DNA of 64,000 nucleotides from Maridesulfovibrio salexigens DSM 2638 (GTDB taxonomy: Bacteria; Desulfobacterota; Desulfovibrionia; Desulfovibrionales; Desulfovibrionaceae). Both the position numbers and the translations under genes were made by a program. This document shows, one piece after another, positions 4,472 to 10,875 of this stretch; position 1 is the stretch's first letter; each line of letters opens with the position of its first letter. A model generated the notes under the pieces. The model did no database searches, was not told the origin of the DNA, and was given only the letters and a program-made list of their open reading frames with translations. The stretch is taken from contig NC_012881.1 of NCBI RefSeq assembly GCF_000023445.1, positions 2,720,501 through 2,784,500 on the forward strand, in the 5' to 3' direction.

Positions 4472-4501
4472 AGCCCCCGGACCGGGGGGGGGCCGGGGGC
4501 T
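4472..4501 (-). terminator. GC-rich intrinsic terminator closing the second Rhs-tip cassette
   Basis: AGCCCCCGG (4472-4480) pairs with CCGGGGGCT (4493-4501) around a run of nine G. On the minus strand a T-rich stretch follows. It ends the transcript of the 4515-4829 gene and shares its arms with the hairpin at 5405-5430. The space from 4372 to 4471 holds the upstream region of miaB, with no further gene. Confidence 0.75.
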
Positions 4502-4514
4502 AAAGGGCTGGGGT

Positions 4515-4829
4515 TTATTTGATAATATCTTCTTCAGTAAAAGGAATACCTTTCATGCAATGACGACAATAGAAGGTATCTTTATATAGAAACAAATAGA
4601 CATCACTAAGAATCAATAGACTATATCCCAAAATTTCTACAGGTTTGCCGTAATACAAATCATATGCAACCCAAGCAAGAATTAAGGCTAAACCGGACAT
4701 GCCCATTTCTCTATAAGTTACAGCCTTTGAAATATTATCACATTTTGGGCATTTAATTTTTTTTATATAAAAATAAAGTACCACAAAATCTATCACAAAA
4801 AAAACAACATTAAATTCGAAAAAACTCAT
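4515..4829 (-). CDS. small three-helix membrane protein with two CxxC knuckles; candidate immunity protein
   Basis: I do not recognise this 104-residue protein from a named family. It has hydrophobic helices at about residues 4-22, 44-60 and 66-82. CPKC at 27-30 sits just after helix 1 and CRHC at 88-91 just after helix 3, so the two pairs could form one zinc knuckle on one side of the membrane. The gene at 5438-5743 has the same plan, with CxxC pairs 60 residues apart rather than 61, but little sequence identity. It begins 11 bases after the orphan Rhs tip, the usual place of an immunity gene. The immunity role is inference. Confidence 0.6.
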   Translation of the reverse strand: MSFFEFNVVFFVIDFVVLYFYIKKIKCPKCDNISKAVTYREMGMSGLALILAWVAYDLYYGKPVEILGYSLLILSDVYLFLYKDTFYCRHCMKGIPFTEEDIIK

Positions 4830-4840
4830 ACAAATACATC

Positions 4841-5383
4841 TTATCGTTTTTTGTTCATATTATTTATACCTATAAGTGTTCCTGTTAGCATGCCCGCTGC
4901 TCCTGTTACAGGTGCTAACAACACCCCTACCGCATTATATTGCTTAGCTCCTTTTCTTGCTCCATTTATTGCTGCTTTTTTAGTATAATCCATCATAGTA
5001 TTATAAAAATCCTGCTTCTCAGGACTCACATAACTCCCAAATTTAATAGCATTATTCTCATCACCTTGAAGAGTATCAATTGTTTGGGAAACTGCCTTAC
5101 CTGCTGCTTCCCAAGCCTCGCCTAAGCCATCGGCAACGTCGGCAACTGTTGCAAAAAAGCCTTTATCTTTTTCTTCATCCTTATTCATAAGAGAAGCACG
5201 CCGCTGATTATCCAAATGTGCTTCATCCGCAGCCTTACGATCCGCCTTCGCCTGTAGGCTGGCATCAAATTGGGCCTGCTTTTGCGCCAACCCATGAGCC
5301 AGTGCGTCCGCTTTCTGCCCAGCCTGTACACCGGATTGATTCAGGTGATCTAAAGATTGCTGAGCACCTTTCTCAAAGGTCGC
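4841..5383 (-). pseudogene. orphan Rhs C-terminal tip (displaced toxin module without the Rhs core)
   Basis: The minus-strand frame from 5383 to the TAA at 4841 starts with the same residues (ATFEKGAQQSLDHLNQS) as residues 160-176 of the Rhs protein at 5743-6699, then diverges. There is no Rhs core upstream. The frame opens within a terminator and has no ATG; a TTG at 5290 would give 149 residues but has no clear ribosome site. The tip is rich in Ala, Gln and Lys and probably coiled, and ends in a Gly/Ala-rich hydrophobic stretch (NAVGVLLAPVTGAAGM) that could insert in a membrane. Orphan tips of this kind act as silent replacements for an active Rhs tip by recombination. Toxicity is unproven. 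Confidence 0.65.
5334..5383. repeat. direct repeat, copy 1 (junction of the orphan Rhs tip)
   Basis: These 50 bases match 6173-6222 at 49 of 50 positions. They encode the shared residues at the start of both Rhs tips and mark the point where the two tips diverge. The repeat is in the right place to let the orphan tip replace the resident one by homologous recombination. Confidence 0.9.
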
Positions 5384-5404
5384 AATGTATATCGTGATAA
5401 AAAT

Positions 5405-5430
5405 AGCCCCCGGACCAAGGTCCGGGGGCT
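5405..5430 (-). terminator. intrinsic terminator closing the first Rhs-tip cassette
   Basis: AGCCCCCGGACC (5405-5416) pairs perfectly with GGTCCGGGGGCT (5419-5430) around a 2-base loop, followed on the minus strand by ATTTTTA. It lies just after the stop of the 5438-5743 gene and 21 bases before the orphan tip homology begins. The arms are nearly the same as those of the hairpin at 4472-4501. Confidence 0.85.
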
Positions 5431-5437
5431 GCGAGAT

Positions 5438-5743
5438 TTATTTTGGTAGTTGGTTTATTGTATTGCAGTTGTAGCACTTATATCCTTCTTCTTTGAGTAG
5501 GTAATAAAGACCTGCAATAGCGAGAAGAATACTAAATATGAAGTCATCAAAATCAAAAAACGCGACTACTATTGCTAACCCCAACGCAAGCAATAAATAC
5601 ATATTCGCTAATGATCGTCTAGGAGTTGCCAAATATTTATGTCCGCAATTTGAGCAAATAATTTCTTTATTTGAGCGAACAGTATAAAAAAGTAATACAG
5701 CGACATAGCAAATAAGTACAATTGTTATTATTGCAAATTCCAT
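5438..5743 (-). CDS. small three-helix membrane protein with two CxxC knuckles; candidate immunity protein for the Rhs tip
   Basis: This 101-residue protein has hydrophobic helices at about residues 3-20, 47-62 and 68-83, CSNC at 30-33 and CYNC at 90-93. The plan is that of the 4515-4829 product. Its ATG overlaps the stop of the Rhs-tip gene (TAATG, one shared base), so the two are translationally coupled, as Rhs or CDI toxin and immunity genes are. The cysteine pairs would make a zinc ribbon bridging helices 1 and 3. I do not know the family; immunity is inferred from position only. Confidence 0.65.
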   Translation of the reverse strand: MEFAIITIVLICYVAVLLFYTVRSNKEIICSNCGHKYLATPRRSLANMYLLLALGLAIVVAFFDFDDFIFSILLAIAGLYYLLKEEGYKCYNCNTINQLPK

Positions 5744-6699
5744 TATTTAAAATCCTTTTTATGTACACTTGGTTTAGCACTTCCGAGTATACCGAAGGCA
5801 TCTTCCATATCCTTTCTGTCCACACCAAGTTTATCAGAGAGTGCTTTAGAACCGACAGCTTTAAGCCCACCCATTGCTGAGCCATAAAAACCACCCGCAA
5901 TAGCTCCTGCTAACGTACCAGCAGGTCCAAAAACACTTCCCCCAAGGGCTCCGAAAGCTGCTGCTCCGCTAACAGCTCCCCCTGCCATCCCTCCAGCTAA
6001 ATCCCAAAGCCCAAAATCATCTTTTTTGGCTTTCAGCCCCGCACGACGCCAATTATCCCGCATCTCTTGGTCAGAACGGGCCTTACGTTCCATTCTGGCC
6101 TTTTCTTCAGCCTGCTGCTTATCCGCTAGTTCCTTATAGGCTTTTTCCATTTCCCTAGCGGTTTGCACGCTTGATTGATTCAGGTGATCTAAAGATTGCT
6201 GAGCACCTTTTTCAAAGGTCGCGTTGTTTTTAGCATTTTGACTTCTGTTTTGCGCGTGTTGCGTGGAATTCCCTCCACTATTCCAACTATTGGCTAATCC
6301 AGAAAGAACACCTTTGCCTAGTCCGGTAAGACCACCGATTCCTTGAGCTGCACCACCTAAAGTTGAAGACTTCTCGCCCTTTGTCCCTTCATCTTCACTC
6401 TCATCCTGCAACCCGACCCGATCAATAAAATTAACCGGATCATCAGCACAATACCCATAAACATCAACATCGCCGCCAGCCAATCCCAGCGGATCAGGTG
6501 TTATAAACCGCCCGATGGAGGGGTCATATTCACGGAATCCGAAATGAACCAACCCGGTATCCTTGTCGAACAAACCGGCGGCAAAGCCGAGAGAGATGTC
6601 CATTCGCTTATTGGTATCGACAATCTGATTTCCAAACGAATCGCGTATAATCCGCTTTACCTCATTTCCTTCTGCGTTAGCAAATCCGACCAACGACAA
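5743..6699 (-). CDS. 5'-truncated Rhs-family protein: last Rhs core segment plus C-terminal tip
   Basis: The 318-residue product begins inside the end of an Rhs core: residues 30-97 hold the RHS-associated core, with GRFITPDPLGLAGGD and NFIDRVGL. Full Rhs proteins exceed 1000 residues, so the repeat shell is missing. The start is a TTG at 6699 preceded in frame by a stop at about 6706, and the homology runs into the neighbouring operon's terminator. The variable tip after residue 98 has a Ser/Asn-rich linker, a charged helical stretch (about 160-225) and a glycine-zipper-like segment (235-279: GGMAGGAVSGAAAFGALGG), suggesting membrane insertion. Expression and toxicity are unproven; it may be a decayed remnant. 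Confidence 0.75.
   Translation of the reverse strand: MSLVGFANAEGNEVKRIIRDSFGNQIVDTNKRMDISLGFAAGLFDKDTGLVHFGFREYDPSIGRFITPDPLGLAGGDVDVYGYCADDPVNFIDRVGLQDESEDEGTKGEKSSTLGGAAQGIGGLTGLGKGVLSGLANSWNSGGNSTQHAQNRSQNAKNNATFEKGAQQSLDHLNQSSVQTAREMEKAYKELADKQQAEEKARMERKARSDQEMRDNWRRAGLKAKKDDFGLWDLAGGMAGGAVSGAAAFGALGGSVFGPAGTLAGAIAGGFYGSAMGGLKAVGSKALSDKLGVDRKDMEDAFGILGSAKPSVHKKDFK
6173..6222. repeat. direct repeat, copy 2 (junction inside the Rhs tip)
   Basis: This copy of the 50-base repeat differs from 5334-5383 at one base. It lies inside the truncated Rhs gene, at the switch from linker to variable tip. Confidence 0.9.
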
Positions 6700-6729
6700 C
6701 CCAACTCAGGTCCGCAACAGACACAAAAA

Positions 6730-6759
6730 AAGAGCTCCCTGCTCGCGCAGAAAGCTCTT
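6730..6759 (-). terminator. terminator of the rsfS-gpmI operon
   Basis: AAGAGCT (6730-6736) pairs with AGCTCTT (6753-6759), with an inner CTGC/GCAG stem, and a T7 tract follows on the minus strand. It lies after the stop of the 6783-7025 gene and right before the truncated 5' end of the Rhs remnant, so the Rhs fragment is insulated from that operon. Confidence 0.75.
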
Positions 6760-6782
6760 CTCAATTCATATTTTACTACAAT

Positions 6783-7025
6783 CTAAAAGAAATCAGGATC
6801 GACAGCAGCCTTGCCGTTTTCAAGCATGGTCTTGTAAAACCTGATGATCTTTTCATCCACCGGAACTATCGGAAAATTCCGGCGGCAGGCATCGCAGGTC
6901 GCCATTGCTGGCTGAGTCGGTGCGATGTAAGGCACTTCCCGACCGCAGAACGGACAGGGAAACATAAAAATTATCTCCATCCCGCTGGGCTTGACCGGAG
7001 ATAAAGGTTTACGGGATTCAGACAT
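6783..7025 (-). CDS. small zinc-ribbon protein of unknown function
   Basis: This 80-residue protein contains two CxxC pairs (CPFCG and CDAC, about 18 residues apart), which should form one zinc ribbon. The rest has no recognised domain and the C-terminus is acidic. The ATG at 7025 is preferred over the adjacent TTG because AAGGA lies about 7 bases upstream, inside the end of gpmI. It is the last gene of the rsfS-gpmI operon. No specific function can be assigned. Confidence 0.75.
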   Translation of the reverse strand: MSESRKPLSPVKPSGMEIIFMFPCPFCGREVPYIAPTQPAMATCDACRRNFPIVPVDEKIIRFYKTMLENGKAAVDPDFF

Positions 7026-7028
7026 CAA

Positions 7029-8561
7029 TTATCCTTTTAAAAGATCTTTACCGGTCATTTCTTCGGGAACGGAAATGCCCATGTGATTCAAAATTGTGGG
7101 TGCGATGTCACAAAGTGCGCCTTCAGAAGGAGTCACACCTTCAAACGCTTTACCGATGAATACCAGCGGCACGTTGTTCAGGCTGTGCGCAGTCTGCGGG
7201 CCGCCGTTTGCGTCAATCATTTCTTCGGCATTACCGTGGTCGGCAGTCAGCATAATTACACCGCCCTGCGCTTTCACTGCTTCTACAATCCTGCCGACAC
7301 AAGCATCAACAGTCTCGCAGGCTTTTATCGCCGCCGGGATGATGCCGGAATGACCGACCATGTCGAGGTTGGCAAGGTTGCAGATGCATAGCGAATATTT
7401 CGGCAATGCTTCAATCAGCTTTTCAGTCACTTCCTCGGCGCTCATCTGCGGCTTGAGGTCGTAAGTTGCAACTTCGCGCGGGGAAGGCACGAGGATACGA
7501 TCCTCGCCTTCGAAAGGCTCTTCGCGACCGCCGTTCATGAAATAAGTTACGTGTGCATATTTCTCGGTTTCGGCAATACGCAGCTGCTTCAGCCCTTTAT
7601 CCGCAATAACTTCCCCGATGGGGTTGCTGATGTTCAACGGAGGAAAGGCGTTAGGGAAAGCAAAATCAGACTCATACTGAGTCATGGTCACAAACCCGCT
7701 GAACTCAGGCGCCTTGGGACGATCGAATTCGCTGAAATCTTTCATTGCAAGCACCCGGCAAAGCTGACGGGCACGGTCGGCGCGGAAGTTGAAGAAGAAC
7801 ACGCCGTCGCCGTCTTTCAAAGTTCCGTCTACACCGGAAACAAGGCGCGGCTTGATAAATTCATCAGTCTCTCCGGCAGCGTATGCTTCTTCAACACCTT
7901 TAACAGGGTCGGAAACTTCCTGTCCTTCACCGAGAACGAGCGCCTTGTAGGAAAGTTCATTGCGCTCGTAATGCTTATCACGGTCCATGGAATAATAACG
8001 ACCGGAAATAGAGGCCACTTTACCGGCCCCGATTTCAGCCATTTTATCCACCAACTGCTGCATGTAGACCTTACCGCTGGTGGGAGAAGTATCACGACCA
8101 TCCATGAAAGCATGGACGAATATTTCCTTGATACCGGCATCCTTAGCCACTTCAATCAATGAAAAAAGATGATTGATGTGAGAATGCACGCCGCCATCGG
8201 AAAGAAGCCCCATGTAATGCAGGCGACCGTCCGCAGCTTTGACATTATCCATGAGACCGCTGATAGCTGCATTTGTTGCCAGCTCCTGTTTCTCAATGGC
8301 AATGTCAATGCGGGTCATGTCCTGATAAACAACCCGGCCAGCTCCGATGTTGGTGTGACCTACCTCGGAGTTACCCATGAATCCGTCAGGAAGCCCCACC
8401 GCACGTCCAGCACATTTGAGCTGGGTCCGGGGACAGCTTTCCATCAGCCCGTCCAGAACGGGAGTGTTGGCAAGTTTGACTGCGTTGCCTTTACCTTCAG
8501 GGGCAATTCCCCAACCGTCCAGAATAAGCAGAACGGAAGGAGCACCGGTTTGTTGTGACAT
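7029..8561 (-). CDS. gpmI: 2,3-bisphosphoglycerate-independent phosphoglycerate mutase
   Basis: This 510-residue alkaline-phosphatase-superfamily enzyme interconverts 3- and 2-phosphoglycerate in glycolysis and gluconeogenesis with two Mn ions. The N-terminal metal motif LLILDGWGIAP is at residues 11-21, and the phospho-acceptor Ser65 lies in MGNSEVGHTNIGAG. Other landmarks are FVHAFMDGRDTSP, SGRYYSMDRDKHYER and the C-terminal LTADHGNAEEM. The length is normal. It sits between rsfS (20-base gap) and the small zinc-ribbon gene. Confidence 0.97.
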   Translation of the reverse strand: MSQQTGAPSVLLILDGWGIAPEGKGNAVKLANTPVLDGLMESCPRTQLKCAGRAVGLPDGFMGNSEVGHTNIGAGRVVYQDMTRIDIAIEKQELATNAAISGLMDNVKAADGRLHYMGLLSDGGVHSHINHLFSLIEVAKDAGIKEIFVHAFMDGRDTSPTSGKVYMQQLVDKMAEIGAGKVASISGRYYSMDRDKHYERNELSYKALVLGEGQEVSDPVKGVEEAYAAGETDEFIKPRLVSGVDGTLKDGDGVFFFNFRADRARQLCRVLAMKDFSEFDRPKAPEFSGFVTMTQYESDFAFPNAFPPLNISNPIGEVIADKGLKQLRIAETEKYAHVTYFMNGGREEPFEGEDRILVPSPREVATYDLKPQMSAEEVTEKLIEALPKYSLCICNLANLDMVGHSGIIPAAIKACETVDACVGRIVEAVKAQGGVIMLTADHGNAEEMIDANGGPQTAHSLNNVPLVFIGKAFEGVTPSEGALCDIAPTILNHMGISVPEEMTGKDLLKG

Positions 8562-8581
8562 GTTTCTATCCTTGCGCAGAA

Positions 8582-8968
8582 TTAATCCTGCGGCTTGAGA
8601 TTTAAATCCATTCTGGTGCCTTCGGACCAGAGACCTTCCACGTTGTAAAAACCGCGGTTATCTTCCTGAAAAATGTGTACGATAATATCGTTCAGATCGA
8701 GAAGGATCCAGTCTCCGGTTTTGTAGCCTTCCATACCGAGGTATTCGATATTTTCCTTGGAAAGCTGCTCCAGAACGAAATCAGCCAGAGCCTGTGCGTG
8801 ACGCACACCTTTTGCTCCTGCAACCATTACCACTTCGGCGATGGGGCAGATGCCCTGTACGTCTACAGCGGAAACATCACTGGCTTGTTTTTCATCCAAC
8901 CATTCAGCAACAAGCTGAACTTTATCCTTAGTATCGATCTGTTTAAATTTCTTTTCTTTAGTTTTCAT
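8582..8968 (-). CDS. rsfS: ribosomal silencing factor RsfS
   Basis: This 128-residue protein is RsfS (Iojap/YbeB), which binds uL14 on the 50S subunit and blocks subunit joining in poor growth conditions. Family motifs seen are VSAVDVQGICPIAEVVMVA, HAQALADFV, GDWILLDLNDIIVHIF and the C-terminal YNVEGLWSEG. It is the first gene of the operon with gpmI. In many bacteria rsfS lies by nadD; here it is joined to glycolysis instead. Confidence 0.95.
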   Translation of the reverse strand: MKTKEKKFKQIDTKDKVQLVAEWLDEKQASDVSAVDVQGICPIAEVVMVAGAKGVRHAQALADFVLEQLSKENIEYLGMEGYKTGDWILLDLNDIIVHIFQEDNRGFYNVEGLWSEGTRMDLNLKPQD

Positions 8969-9338
8969 TCTTTTGGTTTAATTAACCGGCGTCTTCCCCT
9001 TTCGGAAAACGCGCTTGAATTCGGAGCACAAACAGCAGGAATAAAGGGCTTAACACCCCTGCGTGCCGGAGGTCCGTTACTCCCGGCCAGACGCAGTTCT
9101 CACATTTCGTCCAAAGTACAATATGATTATATAGAGAATTTACGTCCGCTACGCAATCCATCTATAGCGGACTTTTAAATCATTTTCAATTGTGAAAATT
9201 ATTTTCGAATCTGAAAACATTTTCATATAAAACTTTACTTCTTAGTATATCAAAAAATATCCTTAAAGCATAACCCCTTTCCTAAGCTTCGTGATTAGCT
9301 GACAATTAACTTATGTTTATATGTTTTTGTAAACCATC
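8969..9338. other. intergenic region upstream of rsfS
   Basis: No gene is supported here. The part next to rsfS should contain its promoter, but I see no clear box pair. The stretch 9179-9260 is very AT-rich. Confidence 0.5.
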
Positions 9339-9342
9339 CCGC

Positions 9343-9371
9343 TTGACGGCGGGCAAACACTTATGCATTAT
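9343..9371 (+). promoter_or_regulatory. sigma-70-type promoter for the paaK leader
   Basis: TTGACG at 9343-9348 and CATTAT at 9366-9371 are 17 bases apart, facing paaK. A transcript from about 9378 would carry a leader of roughly 185 bases. The match is good for the -35 box and moderate for the -10 box. Confidence 0.5.
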
Positions 9372-9384
9372 ACACGACATGCTT

Positions 9385-9513
9385 AACCACGACCTTTTTT
9401 CCTTTTTCTTTTTTTTCTTTTTTAGGACTGAAATATAGTCATCCCGTGGTTATGGAAAAATACACTTACTGAGAGTTTACCGGGCCACGGGCGCAAACCC
9501 CGTGGCCTTTTTT
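9385..9513 (+). promoter_or_regulatory. probable transcription attenuator in the paaK leader
   Basis: Four complementary segments lie in order: A AACCACG (9385-9391), B CCCGTGGTT (9443-9451), C GGCCACGGG (9483-9491) and D CCCGTGGCC (9499-9507). C:D is a 9-bp hairpin followed by TTTTTTATTTT, a strong intrinsic terminator. B can pair with A, leaving C:D to form, or with C, which would prevent the terminator. A pyrimidine tract fills 9392-9423. A tiny frame at 9452-9472 reads MEKYTY then stop, with no clear ribosome site. It could also be a stand-alone small RNA that ends before paaK. Confidence 0.5.
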
Positions 9514-9564
9514 ATTTTGTAACTTAAACCCTGTACCGGGATCAGCCATATCAGGAGGCAAGAG

Positions 9565-10875
9565 ATGATCTTCGACGTAGACAAGGAAACAATGCCGAGG
9601 GAAGAGCTGGAAGAATTACAGCTCAGACGTCTTAAACAGCTTTGCGAGCGAGTTTATGCCAACGTTCCTTTTTACACCAACAAATTCAAGGAACTGGGTA
9701 TTGAGCCCAAGGACATCAACTCCCTATCCGACCTGACCAAGCTCCCGTTTACTGAAAAGCAGGACCTGCGCAACCACTACCCCTTCGGCCTTTTTGCTGT
9801 TTCCCGCGAAAACATCGTCCGCATCCACTCCTCTTCCGGCACCACCGGCAAGGCAACTGTTGTCGGCTACACCAAGCGCGACATCAAAAACTGGGCGGAC
9901 CTCATGGCCCGTTCCTTCGCCATTGCCGGAGCGACTCCTGAAGACAGCATTCACAACGCATACGGCTACGGCCTGTTCACCGGAGGCCTCGGCGCGCACT
10001 ACGGTGCGGAAGCACTGGGCGCAACCATCATTCCGGTATCCGGCGGCGGTACCAGACGCCAGATCATGCTGCTTAAAGATTTCGGCGCAGATGTAATCTG
10101 TTGTACCCCTTCCTATGCACTGTTCCTGCACGAGACAGGCAAGGAAATGGGCATCGACTTCAAAAAACTGCCCCTGCGCATCGGTATTTTCGGTGCCGAA
10201 CCTTGGACAGAGTCCATGCGCCGTGACATCGAACAAAAACTGAACATCAAGGCCCTCGACATCTACGGCCTTTCCGAAATCATGGGCCCGGGTGTTGCCA
10301 TGGAATGTGCCGAAGAGCAAAACGGTCTGCACATCATGGAAGACCATTTCCTGCCCGAGATCATCAACCCCGAAACAGGCGAACACGTTAAACCGGGCGA
10401 AGCTGGAGAGCTGGTAATCACCACCCTGACCAAGGAAGGTATTCCGCTTATCCGCTACCGCACCCGCGACCTGACCCGCCTGAACTACACTGCCTGCCGC
10501 TGCGGTCGCACTTTCGCCCGCATGCAGCGCATTATGGGACGCAGTGACGATATGCTTATCATCCGCGGCGTAAACGTATTCCCATCTCAGATCGAGTCTA
10601 TCCTCATCGAAACCGAAGGCCTTTCACCGCACTACCAGCTGGTAGTTGAGCGTGACGGAAACCTCGACATCCTGACCGTTAAAGTCGAAATTTCCGGAGC
10701 AGCATTCTCCGATGAAATTAAAAATTTACAGCGTCTCGAAAGAAAGATACAAAAAACTATTAAGGAATTCCTTGGCGTAACAGCCCGGGTTAAACTTGTG
10801 GAACCCAAATCCATTGAACGTTCCGTTGGTAAAGCCCAGAGAATTCTCGACCTGCGTAATCAGGACCAGCAATAG
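9565..10875 (+). CDS. paaK: phenylacetate-CoA ligase
   Basis: This 436-residue ANL-superfamily enzyme makes an aryl-acetyl-CoA from the acid, ATP and CoA. The nucleotide-binding motif SSSGTTGK is at residues 89-96, followed by [11 protein letters not shown] and [12 protein letters not shown]. The C-terminal part has [28 protein letters not shown] and a final domain with [14 protein letters not shown] 7 bases before the ATG fixes the start. In anaerobes a paaK paralogue with an ACT-domain gene downstream is common beside aromatic 2-oxoacid metabolism; no ior genes are in view. Confidence 0.93.

Follow-up and report, generated by a model that had tools for sequence, protein, structure and literature searches.

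Two stacked Rhs tip cassettes with putative zinc-ribbon membrane immunity proteins at a probably retired toxin locus of Maridesulfovibrio salexigens

What keeps toxin-like tips and small membrane genes in place where most of the Rhs protein in front of them is gone? The question is raised by a 64,000-base stretch of the Maridesulfovibrio salexigens DSM 2638 genome, referred to here as the window, which covers bases 2,720,501–2,784,500 of the single 4,289,847-base contig. Its minus strand carries two units, each made of an Rhs tip followed by a small membrane gene and a GC-rich hairpin. We consider it likely that this is a retired Rhs polymorphic-toxin locus with two stacked toxin/immunity cassettes, whose tips would act on membranes and whose immunity proteins would be membrane proteins bearing a zinc ribbon.

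Both units, in this place and order, had been proposed in an earlier note made from the letters alone, and scans for open reading frames (ORFs), hairpins and repeats found both of them. In unit 1, a truncated Rhs gene (5743–6699) runs from the end of the Rhs core (about 6409–6699, its last ~97 residues) through a linker to the toxin-like tip 1; residues 21–97 matched the Rhs_assc_core model TIGR03696 at 70.1 bits (cut-off 32.5), and the first tip thus keeps the core end that the note had ascribed to it. The ORF is open back to 6705, with in-frame stops just upstream, and its first start codon is a TTG with no clear ribosome site. The Rhs stop and the ATG of the following gene A (5438–5743, encoding a putative immunity protein of 101 amino acids) overlap as TAATG, and the unit ends with a GC-rich, terminator-like hairpin of 11 pairs with a T-rich tail (5430–5405). 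In unit 2, tip 2 with its linker (4841–5437) has no core. Within its open frame, from 5437 to 4841, the first possible in-frame start is an internal TTG at 5290, which agrees with the claim that this tip is orphaned and lacks a start of its own. It is followed by gene B (4515–4829, a putative immunity protein of 104 amino acids) and by an imperfect GC-rich, terminator-like hairpin (about 4501–4473), so each unit has its own small membrane gene and terminator, again as proposed. Unit 2 is tied to unit 1 by the shared linker alone, in which the minus-strand repeat copies at 6164–6227 and 5325–5388 agree over 64 nt at 89%, and over 50 nt at 98%. The 50-base junction described earlier is therefore present, but sits in the linker behind the core and not in the core itself; the copy in unit 1 is a possible crossover arm.

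Gly/Ala-rich hydrophobic tip ends had suggested membrane toxins of no named family. This composition is strong in tip 1 (alpha type), where 25 of 40 residues are G or A and the head (5746–6075, the last 110 residues, aligned with 16 other alpha tips) has 9 GxxxG motifs against 4.1 in shuffles (p 0.006). It is weaker in tip 2 (beta type), with 15 of 40 residues G or A and 3 GxxxG against 1.4 (p 0.15). Tip 2 matched the hidden Markov model (HMM) of beta tips at 112 bits, being itself among the sequences from which that HMM was built. Neither tip head, nor gene A or gene B, reached a cut-off in Pfam or NCBIfam, so that the absence of a family name stands, and a toxic action on membranes is consistent with the composition. 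As no family scored above its cut-off in these databases, a housekeeping origin of the tips, which the note had named as grounds for rejecting its proposal, was ruled out. A match of tip 1 to DUF3482 (23.6 bits, cut-off 29.2) was set aside and ascribed to composition.

Genes A and B are paralogues with the plan TM1-CxxC-TM2-TM3-CxxC (TM, transmembrane helix). The CxxC membrane gene of the note was thus borne out, and within the alignments the CxxC motifs are the most conserved feature of the putative immunity genes. These genes form three families, alpha (gene A-like, alignment A1), beta (gene B-like, A2) and gamma (A3). A comparison of A1 with A2 (hhalign probability 97.6, E 4.5e-12) shows alpha and beta to be homologous; homology of gamma to the others is not clear (67 over 29 columns), and its plan is two helices and then the ribbon. 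Three helices are present in all alpha and beta genes. All four cysteines are conserved without exception in A1 (n=18), whose members were found by sequence search, and likewise in A2 (n=10) and A3 (n=15), where this is partly a matter of selection because a CxxC pattern had served to pick the founding members. Conservation in alpha is 0.44 and 0.63 in the two ribbon halves, 0.25, 0.24 and 0.39 in the helices, and 0.11 in the periplasmic loop. An AlphaFold2 model of gene A on A1 placed helices at residues 2–23, 42–63 and 68–83 and short strands around both CxxC motifs (predicted local distance difference test, pLDDT, 89; predicted template modelling score, pTM, 0.73).

Charges of the first ribbon, the TM2-TM3 loop and the second ribbon were +2.8, −1.0 and +2.9 in alpha and +3.6, −0.7 and +2.5 in beta, from which both ribbon halves are predicted to be cytoplasmic in these two families; for gamma the values were +4.8, +1.2 and −0.3 in crude windows, which do not decide the side. 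Gene A matched TIGR04104 (cxxc_20_cxxc) weakly, at 23 bits against a cut-off of 45, and one gamma gene (at locus L004) barely passed the Pfam heavy metal binding family HMBD (23.8 against 23.6 bits). Identity between tips correlated with that of the membrane part at 0.61 and of the ribbon at 0.54 (partial 0.46 and 0.32; within genomes 0.48 and 0.51) over 41 pairs, in four of which the upstream ORF seemed by eye not to be a tip. A specificity seated in the membrane half alone could not be separated from the ribbon by these correlations, and was rejected as a claim.

The same site, between a gpmI-like gene with a small neighbour and a miaB-like gene, is occupied in the related genomes G186, G193 and G129, and it shows how the locus has decayed. 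On its outer side, the Rhs remnant of the window is bounded by a minus-strand, terminator-like hairpin at 6727–6762, which belongs to the upstream gene at 6783–7028, and this border is matched in G186 and G193. There, the Rhs genes have open frames of 662 and 638 codons with an ATG behind GGAGG; they lack the N-terminal ~147 residues of longer Rhs proteins, with the frame still open. Compared with these two, the window gene has lost its start and about 250 codons. In G129 the Rhs gene and its tip are in pieces next to an open gene A homologue, and a frameshift breaks the orphan beta tip of G186, next to an open gene B. Longer Rhs genes carry the same tips uninterrupted in four relatives (G186 at L066, G193 at L057, G074 at L061 and G007 at L062, the last with an alpha tip on a core with an N-terminal domain), which means that the fragments do not survive only as decayed copies and supports the proposed cassettes of orphan tip and immunity gene. 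None of the 11 beta tips in the genus sits on a long Rhs.

The ratio of nonsynonymous to synonymous substitution rates (dN/dS) between the window and G186 was 0.104 for gene A, 0.099 for the Rhs core fragment and 0.314 for the tip head, next to 0.049 for miaB and 0.053 for gpmI. Gene A appears, from this ratio, to be under purifying selection. The note had left it between a reservoir and a relic, and the outcome is divided: the Rhs gene is a relic here, and gene A has been kept.

HMMs of the three alignments, run over 48 loci in an inventory that is not exhaustive, recovered 79 distinct immunity-like genes in 13 genomes (19 alpha, 11 beta and 49 gamma), 74 of which are full length. The underlying searches covered all 17 genomes of the genus for gamma, 16 of them with one protein for alpha, and the fetched loci and a phylum sample for beta. 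Classed by a loose threshold at which some tip matches are weak, the inventory has 13 genes preceded by a tip on 300 or more Rhs residues, 20 by a tip that keeps a core end, 21 by a tip with a linker only and 12 by short tip pieces; orphan tips or pieces precede 53 of the 79, and 13 follow no recognised tip. In the reverse direction, all 55 recognised tip ORFs (at least 25 bits and reaching 70% of the model) have an immunity-like gene downstream, a figure which, like the asymmetry, is partly owed to construction, because most loci were fetched for an immunity-like gene (four, L070–L073, were found via the tip alone) and tips next to such genes went into the tip HMMs. Tip identity and small-gene identity were correlated in each family by Mantel tests that leave shared ancestry in (alpha r 0.76, n=17; beta 0.78, n=9; gamma 0.61, n=12; p 0.0001 each with 9,999 permutations).

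The largest array, at L056 (881–16828) in the one-contig genome G048, has 14 immunity-like genes within 3.3–16.9 kb, and all three families stand behind one long Rhs. At four other loci (L137, L138, L140 and L141, in the four genomes G157, G172, G007 and G074) a gamma gene is kept with no recognised tip before it, and is possibly an immunity gene retained alone; the ORF preceding it at L137 and L138 resembles an acyl-CoA synthetase by eye.

Several results weigh against our interpretation, among them the partial circularity and the shared ancestry just named. Nearest neighbours of tip and small gene agree in 13 of 17 alpha and 5 of 9 beta cases, and in only 2 of 12 gamma cases. The one gamma tip tested had 2 GxxxG motifs and no excess (p 0.92), so that a glycine zipper is not common to all families. 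The gene A model matched no fold in the PDB at E ≤0.001 (best E 1.4). Constraint is not strong everywhere, as gene B has a dN/dS of 0.485 to G186 at a dS of 1.18, and between G074 and G007 the ratio is 1.03 for the gene A orthologues, next to 0.29 for their tips. A promoter scan gave 2 sites where shuffles gave 5.4, i.e. fewer. As an observation in its own right, the pair of ratios at L060 and L062 in G074 and G007 may reflect diversifying selection on the immunity gene.

One alternative is a plain relic, in which both cassettes are drifting and their frames are open by chance or because decay is young. The lost Rhs start, the missing start of tip 2, the lack of a promoter excess, the decayed copy in G129 and the ratio of 1.03 in G074 and G007 all agree with it; the low ratios of gene A, tip head and core to G186, and the 74 full-length genes among 79, speak against it. 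The G186 copy is on a longer Rhs, however, so some of this constraint may be older than the deletion in the window. On balance we regard drift of both cassettes as unlikely, at perhaps the best standing among the alternatives.

A further alternative makes the small genes partners of the tips, as membrane chaperones or as a second pore subunit for insertion or export, rather than immunity proteins. Their place downstream of all 55 tips, their membrane helices and their covariation with the tips would suit this role, and the glycine-zipper toxin EsxX is served by a soluble pair and a membrane pair of proteins (PMC12744356), so such toxins can have neighbours with functions beyond immunity. A partner should not outlive its toxin, however, and the 13 genes with no recognised tip, the 12 behind short pieces and the high share of full-length genes count against this role, which we judge to be improbable. 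The least probable alternative, that the tips are enzymes or adhesion domains which merely look hydrophobic and that the membrane genes are, for example, metal or redox sensors, could draw on the lack of a family name for either protein and on the HMBD match of the L004 gene, and is hard to reconcile with the G/A content and GxxxG excess of tip 1, the three helices in all alpha and beta genes and the pairing with tips.

We return to the toxin/immunity interpretation. In this model, the tip would be the toxic end of an Rhs protein, acting on the membrane of a competing bacterium, and the small gene behind it would encode its immunity protein, with three membrane helices and with two cytoplasmic CxxC halves that are predicted to form one zinc ribbon jointly. 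With the Rhs body deleted at this locus, delivery of tip 1 has probably ceased, and tip 2 lacks a start; what selection still maintains would be the immunity genes. The pairs may also serve as a stock for recombination: within a genome, cassettes with unlike toxin heads and membrane halves have the linker in common on the upstream side and, in gamma, the ribbon-coding end of the small gene on the downstream side.

The gamma family bears directly on such exchange. Among 44 gamma genes, the membrane parts are less than 40% identical in 897 of 946 pairs, and in those pairs ribbon identity is 0.546 within genomes against 0.476 between them (p 0.0002); membrane identity also differs slightly (0.244 against 0.224, p 0.006). 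Three gamma genes of G129 are 26–32% identical in their membrane parts and 92–96% in their ribbon parts, and at the DNA level two cassettes of this genome match over 741 nt upstream (94%) and over the 172 nt that run up to the stop codon (98%). In gamma, then, the ribbon end is homogenised within genomes and the membrane half is unlike. The hairpin is present with 65 of the 79 cassettes by a loose criterion, and 35 of 51 strict CCCCG hairpins in the 446,629 bases of fetched loci lie at most 75 nt behind an immunity-like gene. In the window the paired hairpin pattern occurs once (mean 0.00 in 100 shuffles), the imperfect hairpin of unit 2 being outside the pattern. As a palindrome it also occurs once in the whole 4.29-Mb genome, and for this genome a genome-wide terminator motif was ruled out. 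We tentatively propose, as a possibility well short of an even chance, that the immunity genes are of a variable-constant kind, in which the ribbon and hairpin would act as the downstream arm and the core end and linker as the upstream arm; crossovers inside the immunity gene would swap toxin head and membrane half together, and the short Rhs would be exported by a route other than the type VI secretion system (T6SS).

The bodies of these Rhs proteins are indeed short. Their YD shell spans about positions 607–866 of the 909 of the Pfam shell, about a quarter, and a 480-residue model (pLDDT 78, pTM 0.59) fits ~280 columns of teneurin-type shells at 2.2 Å, which suggests that there is hardly room for a tip inside such a body. 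Short Rhs of this family were found in 16 of the 17 genus genomes and TssB in 11; TssC is absent from the six TssB-negative genomes and present in the M. salexigens genome. Uninterrupted long Rhs occur in five of those six (G048, G074, G157, G172 and G186). Gamma immunity genes and TssB occur together in 8 of the 17 genomes, gamma alone in 5, TssB alone in 3 and neither in 1. No upstream partner gene of long Rhs recurred in at least 3 of 13 loci, and no Rhs was seen beside T6SS genes. A role as T6SS effector was unsupported by this co-occurrence of TssB, TssC and neighbours, VgrG and PAAR not having been searched for. G048, with the largest array, gave no TssB or TssC match. In M. salexigens itself the sheath genes lie at about 451–470 kb of the contig (L128 and L129), together with a second, diverged sheath-like ORF of ~499 amino acids.

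Two further Rhs core ends are present in the M. salexigens genome. One (L004) belongs to an 865-residue Rhs whose tip is followed by the small membrane CxxC gene of the gamma family mentioned above, and the other (L005) to a 663-residue Rhs with an unlike tip. The latter (7836–9827 of the locus, contig bases 3,489,836–3,491,827) is a complete short Rhs with a Cys/His-rich tip, which we take to be MuF-like, followed by a lipoprotein-like gene. A fragment of the short-Rhs N-terminal domain lies in a 295-codon open frame at contig positions 1147862–1148353.

Beyond this genome, a search of 199 genomes of the family found gene A in 9, none of them outside the genus, and the tip in 13, its matches at E <1e-4 being confined to the genus. 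In a phylum sample of 395 genomes, alpha was found in 1, beta in 2 and gamma in 11 (six of them weak and partial), and a wide spread of gene A was thus ruled out. A pattern-limited scan of a named collection added two loci of one metagenome-assembled genome. An origin from a mobile element or phage was likewise set aside, with no gene A relative in plasmids or viral contigs. In G061, from another genus, a long Rhs with its tip is followed by a beta-like 89-residue CxxC-2TM-CxxC gene, and then by an orphan tip and an 84-residue gene of that same plan, which makes an independent case. Gamma genes follow Rhs tips in G252 and G255; those of G572 and G275 had no flagged Rhs core pattern next to them.

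Orphan Rhs arrays are already known, and modules of Rhs-CT/RhsI are reportedly found in E. coli as well; it is the immunity architecture that is unusual here. As in Salmonella, displaced tips with immunity genes lie behind a main Rhs; the orphans there have near-identical sequence in common with the main Rhs (522 bp at 95%; PMC3967940), unlike the short body, the 50–64 nt linker repeat as shared arm in the window and the predicted membrane zinc-ribbon proteins described here. Mosaic arrays in Vibrio cholerae keep old immunity genes after displacement of the effector and lie in T6SS clusters (PMC5361080), whereas five array-bearing genomes here gave no TssB or TssC match. The Rhs protein Tse5 of Pseudomonas aeruginosa has a membrane-depolarising tip, and its immunity protein Tsi5 is membrane-bound with two predicted TM helices; in contrast to the quarter shell here, the shell of Tse5 is complete and there is a T6SS partner, and neither CxxC nor zinc is named in the accessible text (PMC9637101). 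Ionophore toxins of contact-dependent inhibition (CDI) are variable helical domains that contain a glycine-zipper motif and are matched by highly polymorphic cognate CdiI proteins, carried on CdiA instead of Rhs, with zinc nowhere mentioned in the sections available (PMC11630599). EsxX with ExiCD, and TelE, provide glycine-zipper depolarising toxins with polytopic membrane neutralisers, and orphan immunity genes in other genomes; they are type VII LXG toxins, and the words 'zinc' and 'cysteine' are absent from the excerpted text (PMC12744356).

Literature searches returned no description of zinc-ribbon membrane immunity proteins of Rhs and no account of competition through Rhs among relatives of Desulfovibrio; by these searches, work on interbacterial competition in such sulfate reducers is scarce. 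If our interpretation is true, the locus would add a new immunity architecture to the Rhs field, in which a zinc ribbon split into two cytoplasmic halves closes a membrane protein, and would suggest a mechanism of exchange with a constant and a variable part inside the immunity gene. It also poses the question of how a quarter-shell Rhs leaves cells with no detectable T6SS sheath, and the rows of tip/immunity pairs in the relatives bear on how such weapons are stored and exchanged.

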